Translations under genes and position numbers: made by a program
Source: an uncultured Bacteroidia bacterium
Lineage (GTDB): Bacteria; Bacteroidota; Bacteroidia; Bacteroidales; F082
Reading direction: 5' to 3'
Assembly (NCBI GenBank): GCA_902770835.1
Contig: CACXUM010000012.1
Coordinates: 1 to 57,591, forward strand
DNA length: 57,591 nucleotides
Shown: one piece after another, positions 1-45,674 of the stretch
How the letters are laid out: every line of letters starts with the position of its first letter
Position numbering within the stretch: position 1 is the first letter of the stretch
The notes under the pieces: generated by a model
Databases searched by the model: none
Seen by the model: only the letters and a program-made list of their open reading frames with translations
What the model was told of the DNA's origin: nothing

Positions 1-653
1 GCACCCGTCTGATGAAAGCGAAAGGCGACATTTTTGGCGATACACTGCTCGCGAAGGGCAAGTATCCAATCGTAGTTGCATGGTCTTGCCTCAACCCCCG
101 ACTCACCGCCTACCGACACTTCCTCTATCGTGTCATCGAGATAAGGGGTAAGATCCATGGCTGTAATCAACGGGGATGCAATGATGCTCTTGTGTTTGAT
201 GGGGAGCGACAAGAAAATGGGCAAACGATAATCCGCCATCTCCTGATTCTCCACCGTACAGCCCACGATGACATTGTCATAGCCATCGCCCCAGTCGTCG
301 GGTACGCACTCCATGAAACGGTCAATGCGCTTGGTGAAAAAGAAAAACCAAAGGTCGCTCCGCTGCTTCATCATCTGCCAGCATTCCGGCCGCCATTCAT
401 CCGCATCTTTCAGAAGGAAATCGGAGGTAAAGCAGGTAAACACCAGCTTGCCACTCTCTATCTTCCACGACTTGTCGCGCTTCCTCTTCATGGGGAGGTT
501 GAAGTTGCCCGTCTTTCTGCATTCGCTGCTTGATATCTCACTGCCGTACATCTCATCCTGGCGATACACATAGCAATACTTACACCCAGGACTAATCTTG
601 GTGCAACCGTGCCATGGATTCCAGTCAGCGTATATATCCCAATGCTCGGACAT
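1..653 (-). CDS. DUF5131 (phage Gp37/Gp68-like) family protein, 3' end outside window
   Basis: Reading the minus strand from an ATG at 651-653 gives an uninterrupted frame to the left edge (about 217 residues). The N-terminus carries W-N-P-W-H-G-C then a C-x6-C-x2-C cluster (Cys17, Cys24, Cys27), the hallmark of DUF5131, a family with a radical-SAM-like cysteine cluster and unknown substrate. Later segments such as FTKRIDRF and VGGESG also fit the family, and the last visible residues FRFHQTG lie near its usual C-terminus, so only a short tail should be missing. A TAnnTTTG box 21 bases upstream supports the start. The function is not established. It is transcribed divergently from the glycosyltransferase gene. 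Confidence 0.8.
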   Translation of the reverse strand, partial: MSEHWDIYADWNPWHGCTKISPGCKYCYVYRQDEMYGSEISSSECRKTGNFNLPMKRKRDKSWKIESGKLVFTCFTSDFLLKDADEWRPECWQMMKQRSDLWFFFFTKRIDRFMECVPDDWGDGYDNVIVGCTVENQEMADYRLPIFLSLPIKHKSIIASPLITAMDLTPYLDDTIEEVSVGGESGVEARPCNYDWILALREQCIAKNVAFRFHQTG

Positions 654-673
654 AAAGTCTCACGAAAAGTCCA

Positions 674-681
674 CAAAAATA
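674..681 (-). promoter_or_regulatory. -7 box for the DUF5131 gene
   Basis: The minus strand reads TATTTTTG, matching the Bacteroidota TAnnTTTG box, 21 bases upstream of the DUF5131 ATG. It sits back to back with the forward box at 694-701. Confidence 0.6.
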
Positions 682-693
682 AGAAAAAAAGCC

Positions 694-701
694 TACTTTT
701 G
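694..701 (+). promoter_or_regulatory. -7 box for glycosyltransferase gene
   Basis: TACTTTTG matches TAnnTTTG and ends 16 bases before the ATG at 718. It argues against any earlier in-frame start, because those would lie upstream of transcription. Confidence 0.65.
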
Positions 702-717
702 CGGAAATTTTGAACGC

Positions 718-1482
718 ATGAACACGCTCTCGGTCGTCATCATCACCTTCAACGAGGAACAGAAAATCGCGCAATGCCTTGACTCCGTTCAAGATATTGC
801 CGACGAGATCATCGTTGTGGACTCGCATTCCACCGATGCGACCGAGACCATCTGCGACCGCTACGGTGCCAAGTTCTTCACCCAGGACTGGCTCGGCTAC
901 TCCGACCAGAAGAACCTCGCTGATGAACTCGCCACCTGCGATCTCATCTTCAGCATCGATGCCGATGAAGCCTTGTCGGATGAGCTAAAACAGTCCATCA
1001 AAGCACTGAAAAACAAAGACATCGCCGAAAACGAAGTCTTCGCCATGAACCGCCTCAACAACTACTGCGGTCAGTGGGTGAAAGGCTGCGGACTCTATCC
1101 CGAAACTAAAATCCGCATCTGGCGGCGCGGCTTTGCCCAATGGGAAGGCATCATCCATGAGTGGCTGAACTACAAAAGCGAGCCGAAGAAAACCCTGCTG
1201 CATGGTGACCTGCTGCACTATTCCTGGGACACGCCCGAGGCATTCAGAAAGCAGCAGTTCCATTTCGCAGAACTGGGCGCGCAGTCGTACTACGAACGCG
1301 GAAAGAAGACAGGTCTCCTGCCCTATCTTTTCAGCCCGAGCATCAATTTCATCCGCACCTATATAATAAAAGGTGGCTTCCTCTACGGCAAAACGGGATT
1401 CAGCATCTGCCGAACGATGATGCAAGCCAACCGACGCAAGTACAACCTATTAAGAGAAAAGATTAGACAAAATAAGACTTGA
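718..1482 (+). CDS. GT2 family glycosyltransferase (WaaE/KdtX-like)
   Basis: A 254-residue family 2 glycosyltransferase. The N-terminus LSVVIITFNEE is the GT-A nucleotide-binding start, followed by EIIVVDSHSTD and the metal-binding acidic motif SIDADEA near residue 80. The overall pattern (LGYSDQKN, then FAQWEGIIHEWL) resembles the WaaE/KdtX group that adds a sugar to the lipopolysaccharide inner core. It has no signal peptide, so it should act at the cytoplasmic face of the membrane. The start at 718 is chosen because a TAnnTTTG box lies just upstream; the frame is open 40 codons further but that part overlaps the divergent promoters. Acceptor and donor sugars are unknown. Confidence 0.82.
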   Translation: MNTLSVVIITFNEEQKIAQCLDSVQDIADEIIVVDSHSTDATETICDRYGAKFFTQDWLGYSDQKNLADELATCDLIFSIDADEALSDELKQSIKALKNKDIAENEVFAMNRLNNYCGQWVKGCGLYPETKIRIWRRGFAQWEGIIHEWLNYKSEPKKTLLHGDLLHYSWDTPEAFRKQQFHFAELGAQSYYERGKKTGLLPYLFSPSINFIRTYIIKGGFLYGKTGFSICRTMMQANRRKYNLLREKIRQNKT

Positions 1483-1513
1483 GAACGGGGATACAAACCT
1501 CAAACCCTTTACC

Positions 1514-1598
1514 GTCATGGCGGACAAGGATCCGCCATCTCCCAACTGCGAAGACGAAACCCTACTATTGGGAGATTGCGGGTCAAGCCCGCAATGAC
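1514..1598. repeat. Composite inverted repeat (REP-like)
   Basis: Two arms of about 30 bases, GTCATGGCGGAC... and the complement of GGGAGATTGCGGGTCAAGC, face each other around a 25-base centre. Each arm is itself a small palindrome (GGCGGA/TCCGCC; TGCGGG/CCCGCA). This is the dispersed 'GTCATTGCGGGCTTGACCCG' type of repeat seen in many genomes. It fills the gap between the glycosyltransferase and tsaC genes. Confidence 0.7.
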
Positions 1599-1640
1599 AA
1601 CCAAGGGGTGAAGTGGCACCCGAATAAAAACACAAGCATT

Positions 1641-2213
1641 ATGGAAGAAGCATTTGAACAAGAAGTGGAACGCACTGTTGCAGCGCTGAAAGCCGGAAAG
1701 ACCATCCTCTACCCCACCGACACCATTTGGGGAGTGGGCTGCGATGCCACCAACAACAAGGCCTGCTTGCGGGTTTACGCCGTCAAGCAGAGGCCGCTCA
1801 ACAAGAGCCTCATCATCCTCGTCGATTCGGTGGAAAGGCTTCAAGATTATGTGGTTAACGTGCCTGCCATCGCCTACGACCTCATCAAGGGTGCCAAAAG
1901 TCCGTTGAGCATCATCTATCCCGAAAGCAAGAACTTGGCCAAGGCCGTTTCCGACGACAAGAGTATTTGCATCCGCGTGGTCGACAACGAGTTTTGCAAG
2001 GAAGTCATTCGTCGCCTTGGGAAGCCCATCACCTCGACCTCGGCCAACCTTACCGGGCAACCTTCATCGATGATTTTCAGCGACATCTGCGATGAAATCA
2101 AAAACACGGTGGATTATGTGGTGCAGCTCTACCACGACAGTTTCTGCAAGCCCAAAAGCTCAACCATCATCAAGCTGAACGAGGATAACACTTTTGAGAT
2201 TTTGAGGCAGTAA
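1641..2213 (+). CDS. tsaC: L-threonylcarbamoyladenylate synthase (TsaC/YrdC type)
   Basis: A 190-residue YrdC-domain protein. It makes threonylcarbamoyl-AMP from threonine, bicarbonate and ATP, the first step of t6A37 modification of ANN-decoding tRNAs. Typical motifs are ILYPTDTIWGVGCDA near the N-terminus, KQRP for the nucleotide pocket, and PITSTSANLTGQPS towards the end. The length fits the short TsaC form without the C-terminal Sua5 domain. The start at 1641 (MEEAFEQE) is used because the upstream in-frame extension is encoded by the REP-like repeat and looks non-conserved. Confidence 0.9.
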   Translation: MEEAFEQEVERTVAALKAGKTILYPTDTIWGVGCDATNNKACLRVYAVKQRPLNKSLIILVDSVERLQDYVVNVPAIAYDLIKGAKSPLSIIYPESKNLAKAVSDDKSICIRVVDNEFCKEVIRRLGKPITSTSANLTGQPSSMIFSDICDEIKNTVDYVVQLYHDSFCKPKSSTIIKLNEDNTFEILRQ

Positions 2214-2225
2214 AGGATTTTTGTG

Positions 2226-2233
2226 TATTTTTG
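2226..2233 (+). promoter_or_regulatory. -7 box for methyltransferase/endonuclease pair
   Basis: TATTTTTG lies 24 bases before the methyltransferase ATG and fits TAnnTTTG. It gives the restriction-modification pair its own promoter, separate from tsaC. Confidence 0.6.
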
Positions 2234-2257
2234 CAGGGAAAATCACCAATTACTTGA

Positions 2258-3445
2258 ATGACAAGAACTCTAACACATATTGATTGTTTTGCAGGTCCGG
2301 GAGGGATTTGCACAGGTCTTCATGCTGCTGGTTTTCAAACACTTGTTGCCATCGAATACATAAAGAGTTGTTGTGACACCTATGCAGCAAACCACCCTGA
2401 AGTTCACGTTATTCATTCAGACATCAGGGAAGTAAATGAAGAACAGATAAAGCCGTTCATTCCAAAAGAAGGTGTGGATTTGGTGACATCTGGTATGCCG
2501 TGCGAAACCTTTTCAACTGCAGGCAACACATCCCGCTCGTTTTATGACGACCGTCAGTTTCTTTTCAGAGAAGGAATCCGCATTGCCCAAATGGCCAATG
2601 CAAAAATGATTCTTTTTGAAAATGTTCCAGCCATCACATCCAAGAAAACAACTAAAAACTCAAATCAATTGATTGTTGATGTCCTGAAAAAAGAGCTGAA
2701 AGATGCAGGATATGGCAACTATGTCGAAGTTGTTTTGGATTCCACGAAATTCGGAGTACCACAAAAACGAAACAGATTCTTTGTTTTGGCTTGCAGATAT
2801 GAGGATTGGTGGTTACAGACCCCAGAACCAAACCAAAAACCGATTGGAGTAGGTGATGCCTTGGCAGGTTTGCCAAATGTGATTGCCAATAGTGGAATTG
2901 AGGGGAAAGAATATACTGACAATCAATCAGATTACTCAAAATTGATGTGTAATGATGCCTTTTGGAAGCGTGAAAATCTGTCAAAAAAAGAGATTACGAA
3001 TCACCTTCCAATGAAACACCGCGACTGCACTTTGAAACGGTTCGCGTTACTCAAGCAAGGAGAAAGCCTTAAGACCTTGTTCGACAGGTACACGGGCGAA
3101 GAACGAGAAAGGCTTCAAGCAGAGAGAATTCTTCCGAAAAAACTATTCATCAAGCGCAACTACAGACTAAAAACCGACGAACCATCCCCAACCGTAACCA
3201 GCCATTGCCTTGACGAGTTTGTGCATCCCCTTTATGACCGCGCCCTAACTGTCAGAGAATGTGCGCGTTTACAATCGTTTCCCGATTCATACGACTTTGT
3301 TGGAGGTCCTTACATTGTTCCGCACATCGACCGAACCGTGCAAGACAAGTATGAACAAATCGGCGATGCGGTGCCACCGTTGCTTGCCTACGCTTGGGGC
3401 GAACAAATCAATTGGCTTTTTGAAATCAACGAAAAACAACAATGA
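2258..3445 (+). CDS. dcm: DNA (cytosine-5-)-methyltransferase
   Basis: A 395-residue C5-cytosine methyltransferase that would protect a restriction site. Visible motifs: motif I DCFAGPGG at residues 9-16 (SAM binding), motif IV with the catalytic Cys82 in GMPCETFS, motif VI ENV at 121-123, motif VIII QKRNR at 169-173, and motif X GDAVPP near the C-terminus. The PCET variant replaces the more usual PCQ. The variable target-recognition region lies between motifs VIII and IX. The gene overlaps the endonuclease gene by 4 bases (ATGA), implying translational coupling. Base composition is more AT-rich than the flanking housekeeping genes, consistent with acquisition by transfer. Confidence 0.93.
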   Translation: MTRTLTHIDCFAGPGGICTGLHAAGFQTLVAIEYIKSCCDTYAANHPEVHVIHSDIREVNEEQIKPFIPKEGVDLVTSGMPCETFSTAGNTSRSFYDDRQFLFREGIRIAQMANAKMILFENVPAITSKKTTKNSNQLIVDVLKKELKDAGYGNYVEVVLDSTKFGVPQKRNRFFVLACRYEDWWLQTPEPNQKPIGVGDALAGLPNVIANSGIEGKEYTDNQSDYSKLMCNDAFWKRENLSKKEITNHLPMKHRDCTLKRFALLKQGESLKTLFDRYTGEERERLQAERILPKKLFIKRNYRLKTDEPSPTVTSHCLDEFVHPLYDRALTVRECARLQSFPDSYDFVGGPYIVPHIDRTVQDKYEQIGDAVPPLLAYAWGEQINWLFEINEKQQ

Positions 3446-4305
3446 ATACAGATTGTTACAAGTTTTGTCTCAATGCCTATAAAACCGAATACGACAGGAG
3501 TGTTCGGCAATTGAAAAAAGAGCACGAAGGAAAAAAAGTATCGGAAACGATGTTGGACGACTTCGACAGGGAAGCACAAAAATCCGCCATCCGAATCTCA
3601 ATTACAAAGGCATTGCGACAGTTCCCCGATGAACCCGTTGCAGAATTATGGAACGCCATTTATCGCGCACATCTTTTCAGAAAATCAGGTATTTCTGATT
3701 TAGAAACCATAAACAAAGTTATTAGCGCAGACCAAAGTTGGAAAAAATCAAGTGGCCATGCCTTCGAGGAAATGGTCAAGGAGTTGGCCTCCCTTGCGCT
3801 TCATGGAACTGGCATTGAGGTTGTTCTGCAACGCGATTTGAACACTTTGATAAAAGCTGACGAATTGGCCAACGAGCCTCGCGACATCAGTTGGTTGCGC
3901 GAACAAATTAGTGCCAACATCTTTGATTTGTATTGCATCTTGAACATTGACAACAAAAAATATTGCTTTGGTTGCGTGCAAGCCAAGACCAGCATTCGCG
4001 ACCGCGTTACCCGTGACCGTGAGCCATCCATCCACGCCATGCAATCGTTCTTCTGGAGCGTTATTTTTGTTCTTGATGGTGATTTCTTGCGATTGCCTAA
4101 ATTTGTCAGCATGGTAAACGGAGGTTCAGAAGAATTCCATGAAAATGGTTGGCATGGTATGTATGTGTTTTCTGCAAAGGAGCAAAAAGACAGGATTTAT
4201 CCTTTGACGATGGACTTTGATTTGTTCAAGTCTCATGCACTCCAAGCTGCTGAACAATGGCAAAAACGCCGCCAATGGTTTGATTTTATGTGGAAGGCAG
4301 AATAA
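3442..4305 (+). CDS. Type II restriction endonuclease, BsaWI/CCGG-type fold likely
   Basis: A 287-residue partner of the methyltransferase, starting inside its stop codon. A nuclease core is visible: E109/E110 in SSGHAFEEM, D162 in NIFDLYC, then Q180-A-K182 followed by TSIRDRVTRD. The run K-T-S-x-R-x-R after the catalytic lysine resembles endonucleases that cut CCGG-containing sites such as BsaWI. The PD-(D/E)XK assignment is read from spacing, not from a search. Alternative: an unrelated PD-(D/E)XK endonuclease with another site. Its pairing with a methyltransferase is the strongest functional evidence. Confidence 0.78.
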   Translation: MNTDCYKFCLNAYKTEYDRSVRQLKKEHEGKKVSETMLDDFDREAQKSAIRISITKALRQFPDEPVAELWNAIYRAHLFRKSGISDLETINKVISADQSWKKSSGHAFEEMVKELASLALHGTGIEVVLQRDLNTLIKADELANEPRDISWLREQISANIFDLYCILNIDNKKYCFGCVQAKTSIRDRVTRDREPSIHAMQSFFWSVIFVLDGDFLRLPKFVSMVNGGSEEFHENGWHGMYVFSAKEQKDRIYPLTMDFDLFKSHALQAAEQWQKRRQWFDFMWKAE

Positions 4306-4343
4306 ATCGTTCTTCACCTATCAAGTTCTTCCCGAAAAAAGCG

Positions 4344-4351
4344 TATCTTTG
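4344..4351 (+). promoter_or_regulatory. -7 box for S41 protease gene
   Basis: TATCTTTG fits TAnnTTTG and precedes the ATG at 4377 by 25 bases. It supports the signal-peptide-bearing start over an upstream in-frame start inside the restriction gene. Confidence 0.6.
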
Positions 4352-4376
4352 CGCCCTTAAAAATCCATTTCATTCC

Positions 4377-5978
4377 ATGAAACCATTAAAAATGTTTTTC
4401 TTGGCTGCCACTTGCATGGTTGCAATGGCAACAACAGCCCAACAGCCCCAATCGAAAGGGCAGATGAACGCCCAAAAATTGGCGACAACGCTTTATCTCA
4501 TCGAGAACTTCTACGTCGATACGGCCAATATAGACAAGGTGACGGAAGATGCCATCATTGCGGCGTTGAAGGAACTCGACCCGCACTCGGCCTATATCTC
4601 GAAGAAGGATGTGGAGAAGGCCAACGAGCCCCTCGTGGGCAGCTTCGAGGGAATCGGCGTGACCTTCCAGCTCATCCGCGACACCATTACGGTCATCAGC
4701 CCCGTGGCGGGAGGCCCGTCGGAAAAAGTCGGCATCATGGCAGGGGACCAGTTCATCAAGATTGACGGCGAGGAAGCCGTCGGCAAGAAGGTGGATAATG
4801 AATATGTGCAGAAACACTTGCGCGGCAAGAAAGGCACGAAAGTGACCGTGAGCGTGAAGCGTGGCAACGACAAGGAACTTCTTGATTTTGAAATCATTCG
4901 CGACAAGATTCCGCTAAACAGCATCAACGCGGCCTATATGATAGACAAGCACGTCGGTTACATCAAGCTCGACCGTTTCGCTCAAGAATCGACGCAAGAG
5001 TTCAAGGATGCCTTCGCCAGACTGAAAAGCCAAGGCATGGAATCCCTCATCTTCGACCTGCGCGGCAACACGGGCGGCTATCTCAACACCGCCATCGAAC
5101 TCGTTGACCAATTCATTACCGAGGACAAACTCATCGTCTTCACCGAAGGCATCCGCTCACCCCGTCAGGAATGGAGAAGCACCAAAGACGGGCTTTATAC
5201 CACGGGCAAATTGGTCGTCCTCATCGATGAAGGCTCGGCCTCAGCCAGCGAGATTCTTTCGGGTGCCGTTCAAGACCATGACCGTGGCGTTGTGATTGGC
5301 AGGCGTTCCTTCGGCAAAGGCTTGGTTCAAAGGCCTTTCAACCTGCCCGATGGCGCACAAATCCGCCTCACCACTTCGCGCTACCATACGCCTTCGGGAC
5401 GCTGCATCCAGCGGCCTTACGAAAACGGCGTTGAGGACTATGCCAAGGAGATGACCAAACGCTTAGAACACGGCGAATATTTCCACGCCGACAGCATCCA
5501 TTTCCCTGATTCACTGAAGTATAAGACCGACGGCGGTCGCACCGTTTACGGCGGTGGCGGCATCATGCCCGACATCTTCATTCCCATCGACACGGCTTAT
5601 AACAGCAAACTTTACACTAACCTTGTGCGCAAGGGAGCCTTGAACCGCTTCACCACCGACTACGGCCTGAAACACCGCGATGACATCAAGGCACAATACG
5701 GCAGTTTCGAGAATTTCAACAAGGATTTCGTTGTCGGTCAAGACCTTGTGGATGGACTGAAAGCCGCCGCCACGGAAGCCAAAGTGGAATGGAACGACGA
5801 GCAGTTTGCCCGTTCAGAGAAGTTCCTCCTTCTGCAAATCAAGGCTTTGATTGCCCGAAATGTTTGGGAAACACAACAATATTATCAGGTGATGGCCTCC
5901 ATCGATACGGGCATCCAAAAGGCCTTGGAGGTGCTTGGCAACGAAAAATCGTATAAAAAAGTGCTGAAAGGGAAATAG
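4377..5978 (+). CDS. S41 family C-terminal processing peptidase
   Basis: A 533-residue periplasmic CtpA/Tsp-type serine protease. The first about 22 residues form a signal peptide ending in TTAQQ. A PDZ domain follows (GSFEGIGVTFQ to IKIDGEEAVG), then the S41 catalytic domain with the Ser/Lys dyad: Ser289 in GSASASE and Lys314 in SFGKG, spaced 25 residues as in the family. LRGNTGG is also typical. The long C-terminal extension of about 150 residues is usual for Bacteroidota members. The role is likely degradation or C-terminal trimming of envelope proteins. It stands alone with its own promoter. Confidence 0.92.
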   Translation: MKPLKMFFLAATCMVAMATTAQQPQSKGQMNAQKLATTLYLIENFYVDTANIDKVTEDAIIAALKELDPHSAYISKKDVEKANEPLVGSFEGIGVTFQLIRDTITVISPVAGGPSEKVGIMAGDQFIKIDGEEAVGKKVDNEYVQKHLRGKKGTKVTVSVKRGNDKELLDFEIIRDKIPLNSINAAYMIDKHVGYIKLDRFAQESTQEFKDAFARLKSQGMESLIFDLRGNTGGYLNTAIELVDQFITEDKLIVFTEGIRSPRQEWRSTKDGLYTTGKLVVLIDEGSASASEILSGAVQDHDRGVVIGRRSFGKGLVQRPFNLPDGAQIRLTTSRYHTPSGRCIQRPYENGVEDYAKEMTKRLEHGEYFHADSIHFPDSLKYKTDGGRTVYGGGGIMPDIFIPIDTAYNSKLYTNLVRKGALNRFTTDYGLKHRDDIKAQYGSFENFNKDFVVGQDLVDGLKAAATEAKVEWNDEQFARSEKFLLLQIKALIARNVWETQQYYQVMASIDTGIQKALEVLGNEKSYKKVLKGK

Positions 5979-38413: not shown

Positions 38414-39223
38414 ATGTACTTCAACTCGAACATCAAATTCCTCCGCAAGCACCGCCACCGCACACAAGACGACATCGCTTTTGCCCTGAATATGAAGCGC
38501 TCCACGCTGAGCGGCTATGAAAACGGCGTTTCCGAACCTAACCTTGAGGCCCTGGTCGCCTTCTCGAAATATTTCGGCATTGCCATTGATACTTTGGTGA
38601 AAGTCGATTTGAGCGGCATCAGCCCGAGCCAACTTTCGCAATTGGAGCGCGGCTACGACGTTCACCTGAAAGGCAGCAATTTGCGCGTTTTGGCCACCAC
38701 GGTCAATAACGACAACAACGAGAACATCGAACTCGTGAGCGAAAAAGCCAAGGCGGGCTATGCCACGGGCTTCGCCGACCCCGAATATATCAAGGTGCTG
38801 CCGACGTTCACGATGCCTTTCCTCTCGCGCGACCGCAAATACCGCACCTTCCAAATCAGCGGCGACTCGATGCTGCCCATCCCCGACGGCTCTTTCGTCA
38901 CGGGCGAGTACGTCCTCGACTGGACCTACATCCGCAGCGGCCAGCCGTACATCGTGCTCACGCAGGACGACGGTATCGTCTTCAAGATCGTGGACAACAA
39001 AATCGAGCACGAGAGCAAACTCACGCTCAGTTCGCTCAACCCGCTTTACCAGCCTTACGATTTGGCCGCTTCCGATATCAAAGAGGTGTGGAAATTCGTG
39101 CATTACATCAGCGCGGAAATGCCCGAGCAGCGCGAAAACTGCTTCCGCGAGGAACAACTTCTGCAAACCGTCCAAGAACTGAAACGGCAGGTGGAGGAGA
39201 TACAGCTGAGGCTGAATATTTGA
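38414..39223 (+). CDS. XRE-S24 self-cleaving repressor (LexA-like)
   Basis: A 269-residue regulator. Residues 1-60 are an XRE helix-turn-helix (RTQDDIAFALNMKRSTLSGYENG), and the C-terminus is an S24 peptidase domain with the Ser152 nucleophile in GDSM and Lys191 in VFKIV. An Ala114-Gly115 bond in KAKAGYATGF is the likely autocleavage site. This is the layout of DNA-damage-responsive repressors. A coiled C-terminal tail (EEQLLQTVQELKRQVEEIQL) may dimerise. It is divergent from dinB and could repress dinB, the dnaE-like gene and itself through the shared operators; that is inference. Confidence 0.88.
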   Translation: MYFNSNIKFLRKHRHRTQDDIAFALNMKRSTLSGYENGVSEPNLEALVAFSKYFGIAIDTLVKVDLSGISPSQLSQLERGYDVHLKGSNLRVLATTVNNDNNENIELVSEKAKAGYATGFADPEYIKVLPTFTMPFLSRDRKYRTFQISGDSMLPIPDGSFVTGEYVLDWTYIRSGQPYIVLTQDDGIVFKIVDNKIEHESKLTLSSLNPLYQPYDLAASDIKEVWKFVHYISAEMPEQRENCFREEQLLQTVQELKRQVEEIQLRLNI

Positions 39224-39271
39224 ATTGTCTGGTTCAGTGGTAGTCGCAAAATTTGCGAATATCATCAAGCG

Positions 39272-39721
39272 TTATTTTAATACCTTATCGACAAAATCAG
39301 TTGGTGACAACACTTCAACAAAAGATTCTTGAACATTCGAGAAATCGTTGATGTTGATGGTTATAAGATAGTCGCATCGATTTCGCAAAGCGCATTGATA
39401 TTGAAAACTGTCTTCAATGTCGGAAAACGCAGTGTCATCAACTCCAGTAATCATGTCGTCGTAATCCATGTTTCCAACGGGAACAAGGTAAAGCATACTA
39501 CGAACAATCTTTCGAGTCTGTTCCGTCAATTCTGGACGATGAATGCCTTTGTGTTTTAACATCTGTTCAGAGAGGTACGCCAAAGTGTAAAATGTGGCGC
39601 ATGAAGTGATTCCCTCAATTTGTTTGTTCCTTAAGGCTTGAAATATGCGCTGAACAGATGCGAATTGCTCTCTTTCGAAGATGTATTCGACAAAAACATT
39701 TGTATCAAGAAACACTTTCAT
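39272..39721 (-). CDS. PIN-domain toxin
   Basis: A 149-residue PIN nuclease: Asp6 in FLDTNVFVEY, further acidic residues in GVDDTAFSDIED and the terminal YLITININDF. PIN toxins are Mg-dependent RNases (VapC-like). It overlaps the upstream small gene by 4 bases, the standard toxin-antitoxin arrangement. Confidence 0.85.
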   Translation of the reverse strand: MKVFLDTNVFVEYIFEREQFASVQRIFQALRNKQIEGITSCATFYTLAYLSEQMLKHKGIHRPELTEQTRKIVRSMLYLVPVGNMDYDDMITGVDDTAFSDIEDSFQYQCALRNRCDYLITININDFSNVQESFVEVLSPTDFVDKVLK

Positions 39722-40050
39722 AATGCAATGCCATATTTATCTTGGAAATACTCGGCTTTTAAATCCTCAAAATCCGGCAATCCTCTATGGATGCTTTTCA
39801 GAAAATTCAATCCAAACATAGGGTCGATGTCTTGCTCTTGAAGGGTGTTCTCTTTCGCTCTCATTTGCTCCAATTGTAGTTGTAGAAAGCGAATTATCCA
39901 TAAAGTATCCGACTTGTCAAGGTGAGATAATTCGGGGATAATGCCGCTTTCCTTGAGTTTGGTGCTTGATCCATAATACAATGCGGCAGATGGTTCTGCG
40001 GCCATGCTGACAGGATTGTTGTTTTCTCCGTATTCCATTTTGACTATCAT
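39718..40050 (-). CDS. Putative antitoxin paired with PIN toxin
   Basis: A 110-residue protein, or 106 if the second Met is used. No clear DNA-binding fold is recognisable, but its position before the PIN gene with a 4-base overlap (ATGA), small size and acidic C-terminal part (GLPDFEDLKAEYF) support an antitoxin role. A TAnnTTTG box lies 11 bases upstream. Confidence 0.7.
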   Translation of the reverse strand: MIVKMEYGENNNPVSMAAEPSAALYYGSSTKLKESGIIPELSHLDKSDTLWIIRFLQLQLEQMRAKENTLQEQDIDPMFGLNFLKSIHRGLPDFEDLKAEYFQDKYGIAL

Positions 40051-40110: not shown

Positions 40111-40160
40111 AGCTTATGCTTCAATTCAGCACAGGCTTTTGTTTTCTTTGCAGCGTGAAA
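40111..40160. repeat. Cassette-boundary repeat R1
   Basis: Reads AGCTTATGCTTCAATTCAGC, then ACAGGCTTTTGTTTTC and TTTGCAGCGTGA. It matches R2 (41932), R3 (43477) and, partly, R4 (44599). In R2 and R3 the first part is a perfect hairpin AAGCCTGTGC/GCACAGGCTT; here the left arm has decayed. It is the left border of the AT-rich cassette block. Confidence 0.85.
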
Positions 40161-40213
40161 ACAAAAGCGGTCTGAACAATATGTCAATAATGGTTGTGTT
40201 TGGGAAAAATGTT

Positions 40214-40221
40214 TACCTTTG
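40214..40221 (+). promoter_or_regulatory. -7 box for candidate structured RNA
   Basis: TACCTTTG matches TAnnTTTG. Transcription should start near 40228, at the edge of the first RNA stem. Confidence 0.6.
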
Positions 40222-40227
40222 CAGCAA

Positions 40228-40447
40228 ATTCATGCAAGTATCATTCTTGGGTGAGTTGACATATTGCATACTTGCTGACCTTTCGGCTCGGTTAAATCTG
40301 GTAAATTCAACCCTTGAAGCACGAATAAGTCATTGCAGGTTTGTAGCCTTTTCGGAGGGCACAGACCGCTTTGCTTGTTTCGCTTCAAGGCCCACCAGAG
40401 CCGAACCGAGGAAACGACAAAGGGATTTCGTGTTCTCCCTTTTTATA
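40228..40447 (+). ncRNA. Candidate structured RNA (~220 nt), promoter to terminator
   Basis: No convincing coding frame is present, but the stretch folds strongly. Perfect helices: 40234-40241 with 40268-40275 (8 bp); 40282-40289 with 40398-40405 (TTCGGCTC/GAGCCGAA); nested inside, 40312-40320 with 40382-40390 (CCTTGAAGC/GCTTCAAGG); and inside that 40338-40344 with 40361-40367 (one G-U), capped by a GCC/GGC hairpin. A terminator-like stem AAAGGGA/TCCCTTT with a T run ends at about 40445. The long rod with bubbles is loosely 6S-RNA-like; alternatively it is a leader controlling the 45-codon gene downstream. The 349-base gap 40161-40509 contains nothing else recognisable. Confidence 0.6.
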
Positions 40448-40509
40448 CTTGAGCACGACGGAAATGCGGAAACCCGTTAGCGGAAGCAAACATTAAAACA
40501 CAAATCATT

Positions 40510-40647
40510 ATGTACCAGTTAAATTTCCCGAACGGCAATGTGCAAACTTACGAGTCGTATAATGACTTAATAAAGGCTGTAGATGCATTCGGAGGAAAAG
40601 CAAATCGGATTAGCGGCAACACCTTCGCCTTCGTGCCGAAAAAGTAA
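40510..40647 (+). CDS. Small 45-residue protein
   Basis: ATG TAC CAG ... AAG TAA encodes MYQLNFPNGNVQTYESYNDL continuing to GNTFAFVPKK. It is supported by position: it directly precedes a perfect terminator and follows the structured RNA. The composition (aromatic, Asn-rich, one domain-like block) is plausible for a real small protein. No family recognised. Confidence 0.55.
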   Translation: MYQLNFPNGNVQTYESYNDLIKAVDAFGGKANRISGNTFAFVPKK

Positions 40648-40653
40648 GCCGAT

Positions 40654-40687
40654 GGAGACTGACACAAAAAGTCAGTCTCCTTTTTCC
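40654..40687 (+). terminator. Rho-independent terminator after small gene
   Basis: A perfect 10-bp stem GGAGACTGAC/GTCAGTCTCC with loop ACAAAAA is followed by T5 CC. Confidence 0.92.
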
Positions 40688-40716
40688 ATGAAAGCGTAAA
40701 ATGAGAGAAAAATGTT

Positions 40717-40724
40717 TACTTTTG
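40717..40724 (+). promoter_or_regulatory. -7 box for triple zinc-ribbon gene
   Basis: TACTTTTG matches TAnnTTTG. It rules out an in-frame ATG at 40712 as the start. Confidence 0.6.
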
Positions 40725-40780
40725 TCTCAATAATCATATTGGCATTATGCCTACAAGTGCAAAATCCAAACTGGCCGCCT

Positions 40781-41125
40781 ATGAAAAACTACCAATGCAA
40801 GAAATGTGGTATTCTGATTAAAACAGAGCGACAGCCCAATGCGTTCAATTGTCGGGCAGGAAACTACCACGACTGGAACGACCTCGGTGAAGTCGGTTGC
40901 GAAAACTACCGATGCAAGAAATGCGGTCTTCTCGTCGAAAGCAAGAGCACCCCATCTTCTTTTGGATGCACTGCTGGAGGCTACCACAATTGGCAAGATT
41001 TATGTCCGATAGGCACCGATGTCTATCAATGCAAGAAATGTGGCATTCTGTTGTACGCCTCAAAGTTGCCCAATGCATTTGACTGCCCTTCGGGTGGGTA
41101 TCATCAGTGGAATAAGATGAATTAA
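40781..41125 (+). CDS. Triple-repeat small zinc-ribbon protein
   Basis: A 114-residue protein made of three 36-residue repeats, each Y-x-C-K-K-C-G-x-L, then P-x-x-F-x-C-x-x-G-x-Y-H-x-W. Each repeat offers a C-x2-C pair, a third Cys and a His, a plausible zinc site, so three metal-binding knuckles in a row. There is no signal peptide when started at 40781 (MKNYQCKKCG). Such tandem ribbons often bind nucleic acid or protein, but the function is unknown. It sits between a terminator and the next accessory gene, inside the first repeat-bounded cassette. Confidence 0.75.
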   Translation: MKNYQCKKCGILIKTERQPNAFNCRAGNYHDWNDLGEVGCENYRCKKCGLLVESKSTPSSFGCTAGGYHNWQDLCPIGTDVYQCKKCGILLYASKLPNAFDCPSGGYHQWNKMN

Positions 41126-41171
41126 ACCGAATAAAACACAACATTTTATAAACAACAAATTCAAACAAAAA

Positions 41172-41906
41172 ATGGCAACAGACAAGTATTCAAATATCGG
41201 CAAAGACGGAATTGTAAAAGAAGGTATTTTTAATCGTTTTCCAATTTTAGAATCTGTTACTTTGGGAGACAATTATTGGAACAATCCAAGACATAATAAA
41301 CTAATGATAATTGCAGAGAGTAACTACCTTAATGACAATGTCGATAGTGTATTCAAGAATCCAGTGACTTGGTATCAAGGAGAAGCCTCTATAATAAAAC
41401 AATTACTCAAAGACCAAGAGAAAAAAGTAAGCACATGGAAGTATTATAGAACATTTAGCAAATTATGCAAGGTAATGAATGAAGTTGCTAATACTCATTG
41501 TAAAAGTGTCTATGAAGAAGCAGTATTTTACAATTATTTTTTACGACCAGCATCAGTAAAAGGAACAGATAGATCATTTAAGAAAGATTGTGAGCCATTA
41601 GACCGTGATGTAGCAGGCACCGCATTATGTGGAGCAATAGATATATTGAATCCTGATATTGTGATATTTGCAAGTAAATATGCATACGATGAGTTTAAAG
41701 ATTATCTTGGATATTCAGATAACACAAATATTCGATTTGTAAGCGAATACAAATATTTAGAATTAGCGAAGTATAATAGAAAAATCAGGATAGATTATGT
41801 TAATCATCCTGCTGCACGAGGATATTATAATAATTGGTATAAAAGTGAGAACGGCAAACAAAAATTCGAGTGTCTCTTGAAAGAGTATTGGTTACGTAAT
41901 CCATAA
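41172..41906 (+). CDS. Hypothetical protein, possibly uracil-DNA-glycosylase-like fold
   Basis: A 244-residue AT-rich gene. NKLMIIAESNYL near residue 43, PLDRDVAGTALCGAIDILNPDIVIFASKYAYDEF in pieces near 140-175, and a late VNHPAARGYY fit the general layout of a uracil-DNA-glycosylase-like alpha/beta fold (early substrate loop, late H-P-A motif). That is a weak resemblance judged by eye. It follows the zinc-ribbon gene by 46 bases and ends 25 bases before repeat R2, which would terminate it. Confidence 0.6.
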   Translation: MATDKYSNIGKDGIVKEGIFNRFPILESVTLGDNYWNNPRHNKLMIIAESNYLNDNVDSVFKNPVTWYQGEASIIKQLLKDQEKKVSTWKYYRTFSKLCKVMNEVANTHCKSVYEEAVFYNYFLRPASVKGTDRSFKKDCEPLDRDVAGTALCGAIDILNPDIVIFASKYAYDEFKDYLGYSDNTNIRFVSEYKYLELAKYNRKIRIDYVNHPAARGYYNNWYKSENGKQKFECLLKEYWLRNP

Positions 41907-41931
41907 TTGCAGGAATTAATCAATTTTCCCC

Positions 41932-41982
41932 AAGCCTGTGCTTCAATTCGGCACAGGCTTTTGTTTTCTTTGCGGCGTGAAA
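41932..41982. repeat. Cassette-boundary repeat R2
   Basis: Contains the perfect hairpin AAGCCTGTGC/GCACAGGCTT with a 9-base loop, then TTTGTTTTC and TTTGCGGCGTGAAAG. It can act as a terminator for the gene ending at 41906. It differs from R1 and R3 at only a few positions. Confidence 0.88.
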
Positions 41983-41998
41983 GCAAAAAGGCATTCCC

Positions 41999-42152
41999 AT
42001 GAAATACAGACACAAAATGAAGCAGCAAGAGGCAGCCAAGGTAGAAGGGCAAAAACACCGCGTGGACCACACCGTACGTCAACACGAAGAACTTCAAACG
42101 CTATGAAAAGCGGTTTTATTCCTGCTATTCGCTGCGCAAAGAAAAAGCCTGA
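41999..42152 (+). other. Decayed coding fragment after R2
   Basis: An ATG at 41999 opens a 35-codon frame (KYRHKMKQQEAAKVEGQKHR...). A second frame inside it reads KNTAWTTPYVNTKNFKRYEK and ends RKEKA at 42152, which looks like a frameshifted gene end. I cannot name a family. The remainder of the 352-base gap 41907-42258 contains R2 and the promoter for the next gene. Confidence 0.3.
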
Positions 42153-42229
42153 CATGTGCTGTTTCTGTATTTGGAACGCCGGATGCGGGGATGGTGGGAT
42201 TGATTTTTTGGAGATTGTAGGAAATAATG

Positions 42230-42237
42230 TATTTTTG
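42230..42237 (+). promoter_or_regulatory. -7 box for PD-(D/E)XK gene
   Basis: TATTTTTG matches TAnnTTTG and lies 21 bases before the ATG at 42259. Confidence 0.6.
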
Positions 42238-42258
42238 CAAATGAAATACTAATCAAAA

Positions 42259-43446
42259 ATGGAACAAGAAACAGAGCTATTAAAAGACTGGTGCCAAAAG
42301 ATTAATGAGCACATTGAAACGGTGTCTAATTATATGACAAAATGCAGCCCGATTAGTAATGAGTACTGCAAATCAAAAGAAGACATCGAAAATGATGTGT
42401 TTAATGTTTTTTATCTAGTGTCAGACTTGTATTATCGTGAAAACTTCCATTCCGACATAATCAGTTTCTTTTTGGATACTCAAGAAAAGCATGGCGCTGG
42501 AAGTGCTTTTCTTGATGTTTTCATTCAGATGCTAAATAAAAAGGGAATGAGTATTAATTCCAATTATTATAGAAACGCTATTGCAATTCGCGAAAAAGAA
42601 GATAGAATTGATATTTTAATCAAATCGGAATCAGCAAAAAGAGCCATTATCATTGAGAATAAGATTAATAACGCAGGTGATATGTGGAGGCAAATACCTC
42701 GTTATTATGATTGTGTGGCTCCAAATTATACCGTTGATGCAATAGTATATCTTCCACTTGATATTAGAAAGGAGCCCAACAAGGGGGATTGGTCAAATGA
42801 GGATAAGGAAAGGGTTAACCCTTTATTAGTTGTGATACCTGCTTATGATAAGTCTGGAAAGATTAATTTGGTGAACGATTGGCTTCACCCGTCAATTCTA
42901 TTATCGGACAATTTGGATGTGGTTTCAACATTACGCCAATACTCGAATTTAATAACAAAACTAAATCATAACATTATGGATACAATTGTTTTAGAAAAAT
43001 TCTACAATGAATTATTACAGGCGGACAATCTGAAAACCGCTCAATCGATTCGGAATATGTTGAATGAATTGCCTGGATATCTGGCTGCTCGAATACAAAT
43101 GAAGTTTTCAGGAAATTGTTTTCCTTTTTCAAAAATTTGGATTTATAAATCTCAAGATGCTGTTTTTGAAGGAGCCATTCTTCATAATGTGTATTATAAA
43201 ATGGATATTTGGTGCTACGAACATGGTTATGATGTTCTGTTTTGGTGGAATCCAGACAATCAGGCGTATAATAGAATTACTGAAGAAGAGTTTTTACAAT
43301 TCGTAAATAGCATCAATTCTTTATCTACTTTTGAAATAAATCCACAAAGCAAGCACCAATGCGTCAAGCACTTTGACTTTTCAGATGAGGTTGGATTATA
43401 TAGTTTTATTTCAGAATTATTGGGAGAATTAAGATCCCTCGTATAA
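42259..43446 (+). CDS. PD-(D/E)XK nuclease superfamily protein (PDDEXK_4-like)
   Basis: A 395-residue AT-rich gene. NFHSDIISFFLDTQEKHG near residue 63 and REKEDRIDILI then AIIIENKINNAGDMWRQIPRYYD form the nuclease core (D-x-I in RIDI, E-x-K in IENKI) with the following Q-x3-Y helix, as in the PDDEXK_4 group often annotated in defence islands. No helicase or methyltransferase is next to it, so this is not a classical restriction system. It occupies its own R2-R3 cassette and ends 30 bases before R3. Confidence 0.82.
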   Translation: MEQETELLKDWCQKINEHIETVSNYMTKCSPISNEYCKSKEDIENDVFNVFYLVSDLYYRENFHSDIISFFLDTQEKHGAGSAFLDVFIQMLNKKGMSINSNYYRNAIAIREKEDRIDILIKSESAKRAIIIENKINNAGDMWRQIPRYYDCVAPNYTVDAIVYLPLDIRKEPNKGDWSNEDKERVNPLLVVIPAYDKSGKINLVNDWLHPSILLSDNLDVVSTLRQYSNLITKLNHNIMDTIVLEKFYNELLQADNLKTAQSIRNMLNELPGYLAARIQMKFSGNCFPFSKIWIYKSQDAVFEGAILHNVYYKMDIWCYEHGYDVLFWWNPDNQAYNRITEEEFLQFVNSINSLSTFEINPQSKHQCVKHFDFSDEVGLYSFISELLGELRSLV

Positions 43447-43476
43447 TAAAATTCTTTTTGAATTAAAATGCTTTTC

Positions 43477-43526
43477 AAGCCTGTGCTTCAATCCAGCACA
43501 GGCTTTTGTTTTCTTTGCAGCGTGAT
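43477..43526. repeat. Cassette-boundary repeat R3
   Basis: AAGCCTGTGCTTCAATCCAG then CACAGGCTTTTG, TTTTC and TTTGCAGCGTGA. The hairpin AAGCCTGTGC/GCACAGGCTT has one or no mismatch. Its 3' part (TTTCTTTG, close to TAnnTTTG) lies only 24 bases before the ATG at 43542, so the repeat could act both as terminator and as promoter. Confidence 0.88.
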
Positions 43527-43541
43527 TCAAAACAAAACACC

Positions 43542-44207
43542 ATGAACATCAAAGACTTATTACAAGACGATGCCTTAAAGGCACTTGAAGACCAAATCAT
43601 CATGTCGTTTGAAGGGTTTTGGAGCAAAGACCACGACTACACCGATGAGCGTAGTCTTATCGAAGTCAGGAAACACATCATCAACCATCGTGTGCTGCAA
43701 CATCAGGATTTGTTGCTGCCCGACATCATAGCCTTCAACGACGCGATACGCGAAGCCTTGCGCGAAATGTTCGACAAAGCCCACGCCGTGTATGAAGCCA
43801 ACAAAGGCTTTGGTGAAGATGTGGAGGTCGAGGCCTGCTGCTATCTTAGCAATGACTATCCGGCATTGCACCCCGTGCAAGGCGAGGACCGCCAAAATCT
43901 TTGGGATGCTTTGCAGGATTCAGGATGGAACCAGCTGTATGAATACGGTGTGTCCTTTCCTCTCCAATTGAGAGGGAACGACGATCCTGATTCCAACGAC
44001 TTTGACGAATTTATCGGGATGAATTGTCCACCGCCCAACTGGAACGAAGGCCTCGACCAGGAACTGACCAAAGACCTGCACCTGATACAAGCCTTTCACA
44101 ACCTGTTCGACCACACCGATTTTGCCATCACCGACTTTATCTATTGCCGTGAGTTTTACTATGAAATCAAAGTTGAGTTCCGTAATGAAGCACAGCAAAA
44201 CCATTGA
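43542..44207 (+). CDS. Hypothetical acidic protein
   Basis: A 221-residue protein with no signal or membrane segment, rich in Asp and Glu. Segments such as DLLLPDIIAFNDAIREALREMFDKAHAVYEANKG suggest a helical core; DPDSNDFDEFIGMNCPPPNW is a distinctive middle. No family recognised. It begins just after R3 and overlaps the following gene, so they form a two-gene unit. Confidence 0.65.
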   Translation: MNIKDLLQDDALKALEDQIIMSFEGFWSKDHDYTDERSLIEVRKHIINHRVLQHQDLLLPDIIAFNDAIREALREMFDKAHAVYEANKGFGEDVEVEACCYLSNDYPALHPVQGEDRQNLWDALQDSGWNQLYEYGVSFPLQLRGNDDPDSNDFDEFIGMNCPPPNWNEGLDQELTKDLHLIQAFHNLFDHTDFAITDFIYCREFYYEIKVEFRNEAQQNH

Positions 44208-44682
44208 TGCGGCCAACATCGCCCGTCTGCTCAATCACGTTGACGAGCACGGCATGAGTCACGTTTTTATGTATGCTTTCCTCAATGAAGTGATACGGCA
44301 GAAACGACCATTCCCGTTCGATTGTGAATCCGCCCAAGTAAGTTCCGACTTGATGATTGTTGACAACCAAGGAAGAAGCATTGCCGTTGAGCATAAGCGC
44401 AATCGGCTTAGCTTAACCCTCAATGACCAGCGAACTGAAGCACCAGCAAACATTGAATACAAAGGCGAAGCCTATCGCCAAGCGATTCTTGCTTGGCTTA
44501 CAGCCTGCATCCGATATACTTCGTTGCAGCCTGAACTTCGTAAAGAACTGACAGGGTATGCCCAATCCATTCAAAGAAGAATTTGGCTTACAAAAGTTTT
44601 GCCTGTGCGTCAATTCGGCACGATTTTTGTAATGTTTTTTCCATATTTTAAACAACAAATACATCAAAAATCATCATTATGA
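44185..44682 (+). CDS. Hypothetical protein with possible nuclease-like E-x-K core
   Basis: A 165-residue protein if started at the ATG at 44185 (MKHSKTIDAANI); ATG 44161 is an alternative. SSDLMIVDNQGRSIAVEHKRNRL has the D-x-n-E-x-K spacing of PD-(D/E)XK folds, and a helix with YRQAILAWLTACIRYT follows. The last about 30 residues (from KVLPVRQFGT) are encoded by degenerate repeat R4 and the promoter region of the next gene, so the natural C-terminus may have been replaced. It overlaps the preceding gene by 23 bases and the next by 4. Confidence 0.5.
   Translation: MKHSKTIDAANIARLLNHVDEHGMSHVFMYAFLNEVIRQKRPFPFDCESAQVSSDLMIVDNQGRSIAVEHKRNRLSLTLNDQRTEAPANIEYKGEAYRQAILAWLTACIRYTSLQPELRKELTGYAQSIQRRIWLTKVLPVRQFGTIFVMFFPYFKQQIHQKSSL
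44599..44632. repeat. Cassette-boundary repeat R4 (degenerate)
   Basis: TTGCCTGTGCGTCAATTCGG then CACGATTTTTGT retains the left arm and loop of the R repeat, but the right arm is disrupted. It provides a GATTTTTG box that could drive the lipoprotein gene at 44679. It marks the right border of the cassette block. Confidence 0.6.
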
Positions 44683-45674
44683 AGAAAGCATTTTTTAGTT
44701 TGGTGCTTCTCTGCGGCCTCGCACTGATGGGCACCAGTTGCAAAGACAACAACAATGGAAACAACAATGGCAATGGCAATGTCACTCCCGAAGTGCAAAG
44801 CGGTGAGGTGGCCGTCGGCAACAACACGGCTAACATTGTCACAGCCAAGGCCGTCAACTATGGCCAAAAGAATGCCATCGTCCTCGCATCCAAGGAGATG
44901 ACCGCAGCCGAAAACGAAGGCATCGCCATCGTCTTCAACGGCAACATCGTCCCCGGCACTTACAGAATGGGCAGCAACACGAAAGATCCCGTGCCCACCG
45001 TGGTCGGCTTCCACGAATTCAACCTCGGCGAACTGCCTTTCATTATGGGCGCCGACACCTTGTGCTATGGCGACACCTATTTTTGGATGAACGGCGAACT
45101 TTCCGTCACCGAAAACAATGGCACCTACACCGTCATTTTGTCACAATGTATGGGCACCAACGCCAACGGCTCCAATGTCCATCTGGCCTTGAACTTCAAC
45201 GGCACACTGCCCACCTACACCTTCGACACGGAAAACAAGTTCAAAATCGGCAACACCGAAAGTCCTGTCGGATTGGCGGGCATCACTGCGCTTAACGGTC
45301 TGAGCGCGCTTGGCCTCGATGTGAAGTCGATGCTCTTTATGTCGGCTGACCGCAAACGTTTCTTCATCGTCAGTTACTTGGGTGGTCAGGTCGTCGATGG
45401 TGAGTACAGCCTCGGCTATATCGGCACACCTTATCTGCCCAAATTCCCTTGTGTACACGTTGCCCTTGACGGCGATTTCTGGACCTTCCAACCCCAAACG
45501 GGTTACATTGCAAAGGATGGCACATTGAAGGTCGTCACCAACGAAGATGGCACCAAGACCGTCACGATGGAGAACCTCAAACTCAAGAATGTGGAACACG
45601 ACAGCGAGTTCTTCTTCCCCATCCTCGATGGCGAGTTGCAATACCACGGCTATATGTATGAACTGAGTTTGTAA
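44679..45674 (+). CDS. Lipoprotein of unknown function
   Basis: A 331-residue exported lipoprotein with lipobox LALMGTSC near residue 21, then an Asn/Gly-rich linker (NNNGNNNGNGN). The rest is beta-rich with aromatic and Gly turns (GTYRMGSNTKD, DGEYSLGYIGTPY). No catalytic motif or named family is recognised. GC content returns to that of the chromosome core, which contrasts with the AT-rich cassettes before it. It is followed by a very strong terminator. Confidence 0.75.
   Translation: MKKAFFSLVLLCGLALMGTSCKDNNNGNNNGNGNVTPEVQSGEVAVGNNTANIVTAKAVNYGQKNAIVLASKEMTAAENEGIAIVFNGNIVPGTYRMGSNTKDPVPTVVGFHEFNLGELPFIMGADTLCYGDTYFWMNGELSVTENNGTYTVILSQCMGTNANGSNVHLALNFNGTLPTYTFDTENKFKIGNTESPVGLAGITALNGLSALGLDVKSMLFMSADRKRFFIVSYLGGQVVDGEYSLGYIGTPYLPKFPCVHVALDGDFWTFQPQTGYIAKDGTLKVVTNEDGTKTVTMENLKLKNVEHDSEFFFPILDGELQYHGYMYELSL

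Follow-up and report, generated by a model that had tools for sequence, protein, structure and literature searches.

Repeat-bounded arrays of apparently exchangeable gene cassettes in uncultured Bacteroidales

Integrons are classically recognised by their cassette arrays, and a 57,591-nucleotide stretch of DNA from an uncultured Bacteroidia bacterium (Bacteroidales, F082; GenBank assembly GCA_902770835.1, contig CACXUM010000012.1, positions 1 to 57,591; hereafter the window) raises the question of whether such an array can be organized by a different repeat. An earlier note, made from the letters of the window alone, had proposed that a ~50-bp hairpin repeat, which we call R, is an integron-like recombination boundary between groups of small plus-strand genes, with its recombinase encoded elsewhere. 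Comparing the window with related genomes, we consider it fairly probable that R marks a portable border from one gene cassette to the next, terminator-, operator- and promoter-like at once, with cassettes exchanged by recombination between R copies. The host group is uncultured, mostly rumen Bacteroidales.

A repeat search of the window recovered R at 40111, 41932 and 43477 (R1 to R3), all on the plus strand and 81–85% identical to the first copy over 67 nt, together with a 21-nt plus-strand match at 44601–44621; these four scored 54, 59, 53 and 18 bits against an R profile. With up to 3 mismatches allowed, the 23-base core of R occurred 5 times in the 3.26-Mb genome compared with 0 times for a backward control, which excludes a chance origin. 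Four same-orientation units, the last of them degenerate, had been described, each 25–30 bases beyond a stop codon. Three copies stand where they were reported, and the spacing holds for R2 (25 bases) and R3 (30 bases) but not for R1, which has an imperfect left arm, is preceded by no plus-strand stop and lies 60 bases from the start of the minus-strand gene at 39718–40050. The fourth copy is a hybrid, in which R sequence continues as far as TTCGGCAC and is followed by the promoter region of the next chromosomal gene, a part that matches the empty sites of relatives. Because this joint falls in TTCGGCAC, common to R and to the empty site, we read the supposedly degenerate copy as half an R. 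It is located within the end of the preceding open reading frame (ORF), and a loop stop codon seen by eye in a related cassette is absent from it. Also by eye, cassette 2, which follows R2, opens with a remnant of another cassette gene (positions 41999–42106).

Is R simply a common terminator? In the window's own genome (G000, in which C12 is the window contig), copies above 28 bits, the profile threshold for calling a copy, numbered three on C12, three over the full length of C69 and two within the initial 12 kb of C27. Besides these groups, whole-genome BLAST returned short or weak matches at C12:25232, on C49 and on C32 and the half copy at 44601; it overlooked two divergent C69 copies that the profile found, and other divergent copies could exist in this genome. 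Because the good copies are grouped on three contigs, R is not a common terminator of G000 scattered beside core genes, the pattern that the earlier note had named as fatal to its proposal. Among 100 relatives, a 71-base query found R in 31 (E ≤ 0.01), 27 of which are among the 60 same-genus genomes, the window's own included; many R places among the matches listed cluster on single contigs. A pattern scan of 84,980 species genomes, a set that may omit near relatives of the window, returned 59 stretches, of which 57 were titled Bacteroidales or Bacteroidia and 2 bacterium F082; 37 carried RUG names, which we take to denote rumen genomes, and 5 carried RGIG names (goat or yak stomach samples). 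R matched 4 of 393 genomes of the order, two of them outside the genus. Viral contigs contained no exact R pattern, and plasmid and phage collections gave no R match (blastn 'distant').

We next considered what lies between copies, using the window and 35 loci (two from G000 itself) that were chosen for R matches, so that counts describe arrays and not genomes. These contained 110 R copies above threshold, with one orientation per locus in all 36 and two or more copies in 26; the 74 R-to-R intervals had a median of 1822 bp (range 314–5575). Adding the 59 stretches left 175 distinct copies after 78 duplicates were dropped, and the flanks of these copies sorted into 71 upstream and 40 downstream groups. 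Of the 24 downstream groups with at least two members, 22 were joined to more than one upstream group. We counted 118 different flank pairings among the 152 ungapped copies with both flanks, and 59 among the 93 copies whose two flank groups both recur. Half of the complete cassettes (37 of 74) had a whole-length relative in another locus. In the 49 whole-cassette pairs between genomes, the left neighbour differed in 45 and the right in 35, which is the reordering of shared cassettes that the earlier note had suggested looking for. Of 450 homology end-points between arrays, occupying 204 bins of 50 bp, 44% fell in R on at least one side compared with 10% expected.

Sequence identities across the main, deep division among these genomes were often high. 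Seventeen gene families span this main split, with best DNA identities of 64% to 99.1% and at least 90% in 8; F43 reached 99.1% over 801 bp, F42 and F28 reached 97%, and the window gene at 43542–44207 (F4) is 91% identical over 666 bp to its copy in G051. The 17 include the flank genes F1, F2, F5 and F16, all below 90%. As a yardstick, the window's MutS2 shares 71.5% with that of G037, which lies across the split; this value comes from one pair and not from the genome pairs behind those identities. These comparisons show cassettes passing between species: units bounded by R, each with one to a few genes that mostly point away from it, are gained, lost and reordered from species to species, and the joints fall preferentially in R.

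Closer relatives show the same at the window's own site. Three sister genomes (G018, G048 and G056), with MutS2 proteins 98–99% identical to the window's, hold other cassettes than the window between the LexA-like gene and the lipoprotein-like gene that flank it, so close relatives do not keep the same genes and order. Among 26 sequences examined for both flank genes, these three and the window were occupied; in nine relatives the two genes lay 69–153 bp apart with no array, and in G007 they were 1460 bp apart. Two sequences showed the left gene alone, two the right alone and eight neither. Of 10 comparable relatives, 9 thus have an empty site. On its right, the window's insert is joined within the words TTCGGCAC, which R shares with the promoter region of the empty site. 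The left edge of the insert has no R, and a palindrome of another family lies nearby. The minus-strand PIN pair of the window is inside the insert yet outside the R array, and empty sites leave no room for it. As a separate observation, the promoter region upstream of the lipoprotein-like gene, of GGCACAATTTTTGC type, is the place at which the array joins the chromosome, with empty sites in L166–L170, L172, L173, L180 and L181; we take this region to resemble a sigma-54 −24/−12 site.

What might R do as a boundary? Across the 175 copies, the median folding energy was −15.8 kcal/mol compared with −4.1 for one simple shuffle each, and behind the hairpin comes a T-rich run (T makes up 0.76 of positions 27–36). 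A called plus-strand stop lay at most 65 bp before R, or overlapped it, in 70 of 108 cases, and a called start at most 24 bp after it in 62 of 109. R sequence thus has the stable hairpin, T-rich run and nearby stop codon by which intrinsic terminators are recognized, and its TTTGC box resembles the −7 box of Bacteroidetes promoters. R reads as a terminator plus promoter, and the idea that it could end the preceding gene and start the next fits these predicted features.

The core of R suggests a further role. Five positions of the inner stem, TGTGC/GCACA, show little or no variation among 145 distinct copies, and a variant, R', found in a related lineage that had scored as R-negative, keeps most of the core. 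In outlying copies, two outer stem pairs changed on both sides (in 8 of 9 and 7 of 9). Because the core is kept while the outer stem changes in pairs, the repeat suggests both a required fold and a protein that reads the core. A likely candidate for the regulator of R is F1, which has WYL (Pfam, 2.7e-13) and WCX (1.5e-11) domains. With a cut-off of 74% identity, set once the search results were in, F1 was present in 22 of 27 R-positive genomes and in 3 of the 33 that were R-negative (Fisher 8.9e-9, kinship ignored); one of those three, G036, has R by profile. R' gave a strong match once in each of 7 genomes, always 1.3–1.9 kb upstream of the WYL gene, and weak matches alone in seven more, with two weak extra matches in G043; R or other palindromes lie upstream of F1 orthologues. 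Since R or its variant stands at the F1 locus in both lineages, its core is probably an F1 operator. In loci L149–L155, which belong to the other lineage, gene A is constant in the operon R'-A-B-WYL and slot B is filled by one of three unrelated genes; exchange therefore also occurs away from R.

Putting these features together, we propose that the hairpin and T-rich run of R would end the preceding cassette and the TTTGC box would start the next, with the palindrome core TGTGC-N9-GCACA serving as a protein-binding site, probably the operator of the WYL regulator F1. On this view, the defence-like genes of the array would form one regulon with interchangeable members. Cassettes would most likely be exchanged via recombination between incoming and resident R copies, whether by general homologous exchange or by an enzyme acting in trans.

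Several observations weigh against so simple a scheme. Alignments run naturally through R, and shared R sequence draws some end-points. Of 257 related cassette pairs, 49 were whole, 73 shared the start only, 39 the end only, 95 inner parts and 1 both ends; because many pairs share only parts, R is a preferred seam and not the sole one. Gene order within cassettes also differs between the window and its sisters. Within the main lineage, stem covariation did not rise above independence, and 3 of 9 outlying copies break one inner core pair. Five R-positive genomes have no close F1, and the link to the WYL gene is partly one of lineage and position, with F1 often at the array end. Nearly all genomes are draft assemblies.

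Where within R do partners change? In the 77 copies that had both an upstream and a downstream partner, the left stem's outer part tracked the upstream one (53 versus 16) and the loop was undecided (39 upstream versus 37 downstream), while positions 27–32 tracked the downstream partner (50 versus 22) and positions 42–47 did so clearly (68 versus 7). Positions 27–32 also kept an upstream link above all 200 permutations. The switch in linkage is spread over the hairpin and beyond; we looked for a fixed crossover base in R and found none. One of the crossover comparisons used pairs (143 and 30) that are not independent. Homologous exchange, or an enzyme followed by later drift, would both fit such spread joints, and homologous exchange fits because, in addition, cassettes break inside.

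A candidate exchange enzyme is F37, of 346 residues. As a rival account, a RAYT-like HUH/Y1 machine built on F37 would recognise the single-stranded R hairpin, excise cassettes and insert them at R, in cis or in trans; we regard this as possible but on balance unlikely. In 8 distinct contigs (one frameshifted), from loci that had been fetched for R, the aligned start of F37 lies 124–139 bp from the first R and the gene is divergent from the array; remnants in 3 more contigs lie 140, 125 and 35 bp from R, the last being an inner fragment. Ten R copies with an F37-type upstream flank, of which 7 have F37 itself, 2 a remnant and 1 neither, join 7 different downstream groups; an enzyme gene divergent from an array whose first cassette varies is an anatomy that recalls integrons. 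In a search of 100 relatives not selected for R, F37 at 66% identity or more occurs in 8, all R-positive (G010 weakly; Fisher 8.7e-4), and an uninterrupted copy in the window's own genome (G000:C27:5753-6775) offers a candidate, in a putative role, for the recombinase that had been expected elsewhere. The wider family keeps DHxH and Y-x-x-x-N-P, the motif pattern of an HUH survey (PMC6006769), with the P mostly another residue in F37 itself. Ranks 1–18 of a Foldseek search with the F37 model were all transposases, ISDra2 first and 4er8, a REP transposase bound to its hairpin, included, and the six matches at E ≤ 0.001 were all from Deinococcus; these rankings come from a low-confidence model (pLDDT, the predicted local distance difference test, 41.6). 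Set against this account, 19 of 27 R-positive genomes, nearly complete ones included, have no close F37; junctions are spread over R and not placed at one base; three of four further F37 places, the G000 paralogue among them, lack a full R in the vicinity, and the fourth, in G010, has an R fragment at the 3' end of the gene. Profile matches were below their cut-offs (NCBIfam REP_Tyr_transpos, for RAYT, 20.9 bits versus 80; Pfam Y1_Tnp, 13 versus 23), and a sequence search of PDB with F37 gave no match. A REPtron has its repeat on both sides of the gene, and in the DNA examined, of which little extends 3' of the gene in L105 and L128, R occurred only 5' of F37. Because most array genomes have no close F37, we keep it as a candidate only. 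A shade more doubtful still is the broader idea that the arrays are a second, independently evolved kind of integron, with an HUH/Y1 recombinase, an attachment site, R, that is also terminator, operator and promoter, and WYL control, in rumen Bacteroidales. Separately, an F37 relative of ~30% identity occurs in ten loci (L189–L198) without a full R nearby.

Other accounts assign R a smaller part or a different enzyme. That R is a shared terminator-operator-promoter module with no role in recombination, its genes moved by phage, conjugation or competence, would suit the stops and starts around R, its terminator-like fold, the lone R-like element at the WYL locus of the other lineage and the exchange seen away from R; we find it improbable, as homology break-points concentrate in R, base linkage shifts from the upstream to the downstream partner within it, and the hybrid at the right edge of the insert is a joint inside R. 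A tyrosine recombinase acting in trans, in the manner of a degenerate integron or of Xer-driven modules such as pdif, is consistent with inverted arms around a short spacer and an undecided loop, and the window's genome has three matches to PF00589. Over 36 same-genus and 24 other genomes, PF00589 occurred in 59 of 60 and PF01797 in 47 of 60; among the matches listed, neither showed a tie to the arrays, in a search that left serine recombinases outside and in which PF01797 at 1e-5 missed F37. Among the PF00589 matches listed for the 36 same-genus genomes, none lay in a fetched array locus and two were on array contigs, ~88 kb (G002) and 135 kb (G034) away. The spacer also varies between R copies. 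The attC sites of integrons have the core motifs GTTRRRY and RYYYAAC; of the 175 R copies, 15 contained the former, 15 the latter and none both, shuffled copies contained GTTRRRY at the same frequency (14), and a strict search of the window for GTTRRRY-N14-RYYYAAC gave none. The integron integrase profile TIGR02249 was below cut-off in all 20 genomes searched (15 with R, 5 without). We accordingly give a tyrosine recombinase very little credence. Least credible by far is an artefact of metagenome assembly: repeats do break contigs, and several contigs end just before the WYL gene, but arrays occur in assemblies of several naming series (RUG, RGIG, SRR-bins and F082) and the flanks of the window site are syntenic in four genomes. 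Recombination between R copies thus remains the reading we prefer. A direct array of exchangeable cassettes, one mark of an integron, is present; the arrays are integron-like in outcome and behaviour, with cassettes swapped and homology broken at R, but are not integrons by the two defining features tested, integrase and attC pair. The integron-like boundary of the earlier note stands to that extent.

How do these arrays compare with known systems? The minimal mobile elements of Neisseria are gene units exchanged through shared flanks; those flanks are conserved genes, whereas a 50-bp repeat lies between the units of an R array. The pdif modules of Acinetobacter are described as having short recombination sites around mobile gene modules, as with R, and rest on Xer-type sites; we set R beside them by description only. 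Integrons and CALIN (attC clusters without an integrase) resemble R arrays in their one-way, head-to-tail cassettes, hairpin repeat, variable content and exchange between species, but R arrays have no integron integrase over cut-off and no attC core pair, and their candidate enzyme is of HUH type. A survey (PMC9024848) describes attC sites as varying in sequence while keeping their structure, and most cassettes as promoterless, unlike R, which is conserved in sequence and terminator- and promoter-like. The same survey names a single complete integron in the Bacteroidetes phylum, in Salinibacter (PMC9024848). Our searches of open-licence papers found no report of arrays such as these.

With the REP/RAYT (TnpA-REP) and IS200/IS605 systems, F37 shares HUH and tyrosine motifs and a hairpin repeat near the gene, and its modelled fold, at low confidence, matches ISDra2, IS608 and 4er8. 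REPs are highly abundant and alternate in orientation within bacterial interspersed mosaic elements (BIMEs), according to PMC2817692, whereas R copies are few, are directly repeated and lie to one side of the gene, with gene cassettes between them. F37 also has the long C-terminal part that PMC6006769 gives as a feature of subclasses without REPs. Inverted repeats are the binding sites of BrxR, a WYL protein that represses defence genes (PMC9122601). Like those of BrxR/WYL islands (R-BOX), F1 is a WYL and WCX protein linked to defence-like genes, with inverted repeats before operons; in PMC9122601, BrxR boxes consist of 11-bp repeats 5 bp apart and stand at two places of a single island, whereas the R palindrome precedes many exchangeable cassettes.

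That a clear array exists with a different repeat and without a recognisable integron integrase suggests more than one origin of cassette exchange. Each unit seems to carry its own terminator and promoter, so that a new gene could work wherever it is inserted, and the F37–R pair makes enzyme-driven exchange directly testable. The arrays also contain candidate phage-defence genes, and uncharacterised ones can readily be drawn from them. PADLOC matched 6 of 9 cassette proteins scanned; the other three, including two of the window, had no match. The PD-(D/E)XK nuclease that had been called between R2 and R3 is upheld by Pfam and is a candidate PDC-S26 protein (PADLOC, 2.7e-34). DUF262-like cassettes matched HEC-06 and SspE-type models, and other cassettes encode PLD, AAA, FtsZ-like and FtsK-like proteins. 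A defence role of cassette genes is likely on these matches. PDC-S26-like proteins occupy two adjacent cassettes of the window (42259–43446 and 44191–44682), and the end of the smaller one lies in the half R, from where its frame runs on into the start of the next gene.

Table 1. Position, strand and supporting evidence of features at the array and its flanks in the window.
Feature	Position	Strand	Evidence
LexA-like helix-turn-helix (HTH)/S24 gene, left chromosomal neighbour of insertion site	38414..39223	+	Pfam HTH_3, Peptidase_S24
Second-family palindrome (AGTGGTA..TACCACT type) near left edge of insert	39235..39265		nhmmer, weak, E = 0.34
Minus-strand pair: PIN-domain protein (39272-39721) and small upstream protein (39718-40050)	39272..40050	-	Pfam PIN_3 8.4e-14
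R1: hairpin, T-rich run, TTTGC promoter-like motif	40111..40160	+	Repeat search, profile 54 bits
Structured leader RNA of cassette 1	40223..40492	+	Folding versus shuffles, conservation; no Rfam family
45-residue protein, family F62 (3 members)	40510..40647	+	ORF list
Protein with repeated zinc-ribbon motifs	40712..41125	+	Pfam zinc-ribbon matches
Protein of family F24	41172..41906	+	No Pfam match; members in 6 loci
R2	41932..41982	+	Repeat search, profile 59 bits
Remnant of F67 cassette gene, start of cassette 2	41999..42106	+	By-eye comparison with family F67
PD-(D/E)XK nuclease, candidate phage-defence protein	42259..43446	+	Pfam PDDEXK_4 6.9e-20; PADLOC PDC-S26 2.7e-34
R3	43477..43527	+	Repeat search, profile 53 bits
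Hypothetical protein, family F4 (12 loci)	43542..44207	+	No Pfam or PADLOC match
Small protein, weak PDDEXK_4 (below cut-off) and PDC-S26 similarity	44191..44682	+	ORF list, Pfam, PADLOC
Right junction: left half of R fused at TTCGGCAC to promoter region of next gene	44601..44621	+	Comparison with empty sites of relatives
Lipoprotein-like gene, right chromosomal neighbour of insertion site	44679..45674	+	ORF list; no Pfam match

Among the remaining features, a structured RNA and zinc ribbons had been proposed for the first gene group. The gene with repeated zinc-ribbon motifs, which also occurs in G018 and G048 in a different gene order, gave zinc-ribbon-type Pfam matches, of which only DUF7128 (2.1e-8) passed its cut-off. 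A second palindrome family, of AGTGGTATGTGCAAAATTTGCACATACCACT type, occurs near the left ends of several arrays (the window, L060, L067, L052, L061, L062 and others) and within some RhuM/Fic-type genes too; a palindrome query from L060 (nhmmer) matched L060, L067 and others more strongly than the window. The Rfam scan of the window, the leader and 8 array loci returned no family over threshold. The structured RNA was corroborated: the leader folds beyond its shuffles (z = −4.97, with 0 of 200 better) and is conserved in 6 cassette copies, with a compensatory change in 4 of 82 pairs, and may be a new RNA family of ~270 nt. It recurs in L045, L046, L049, L051 and L075, followed by different genes in different cassettes.

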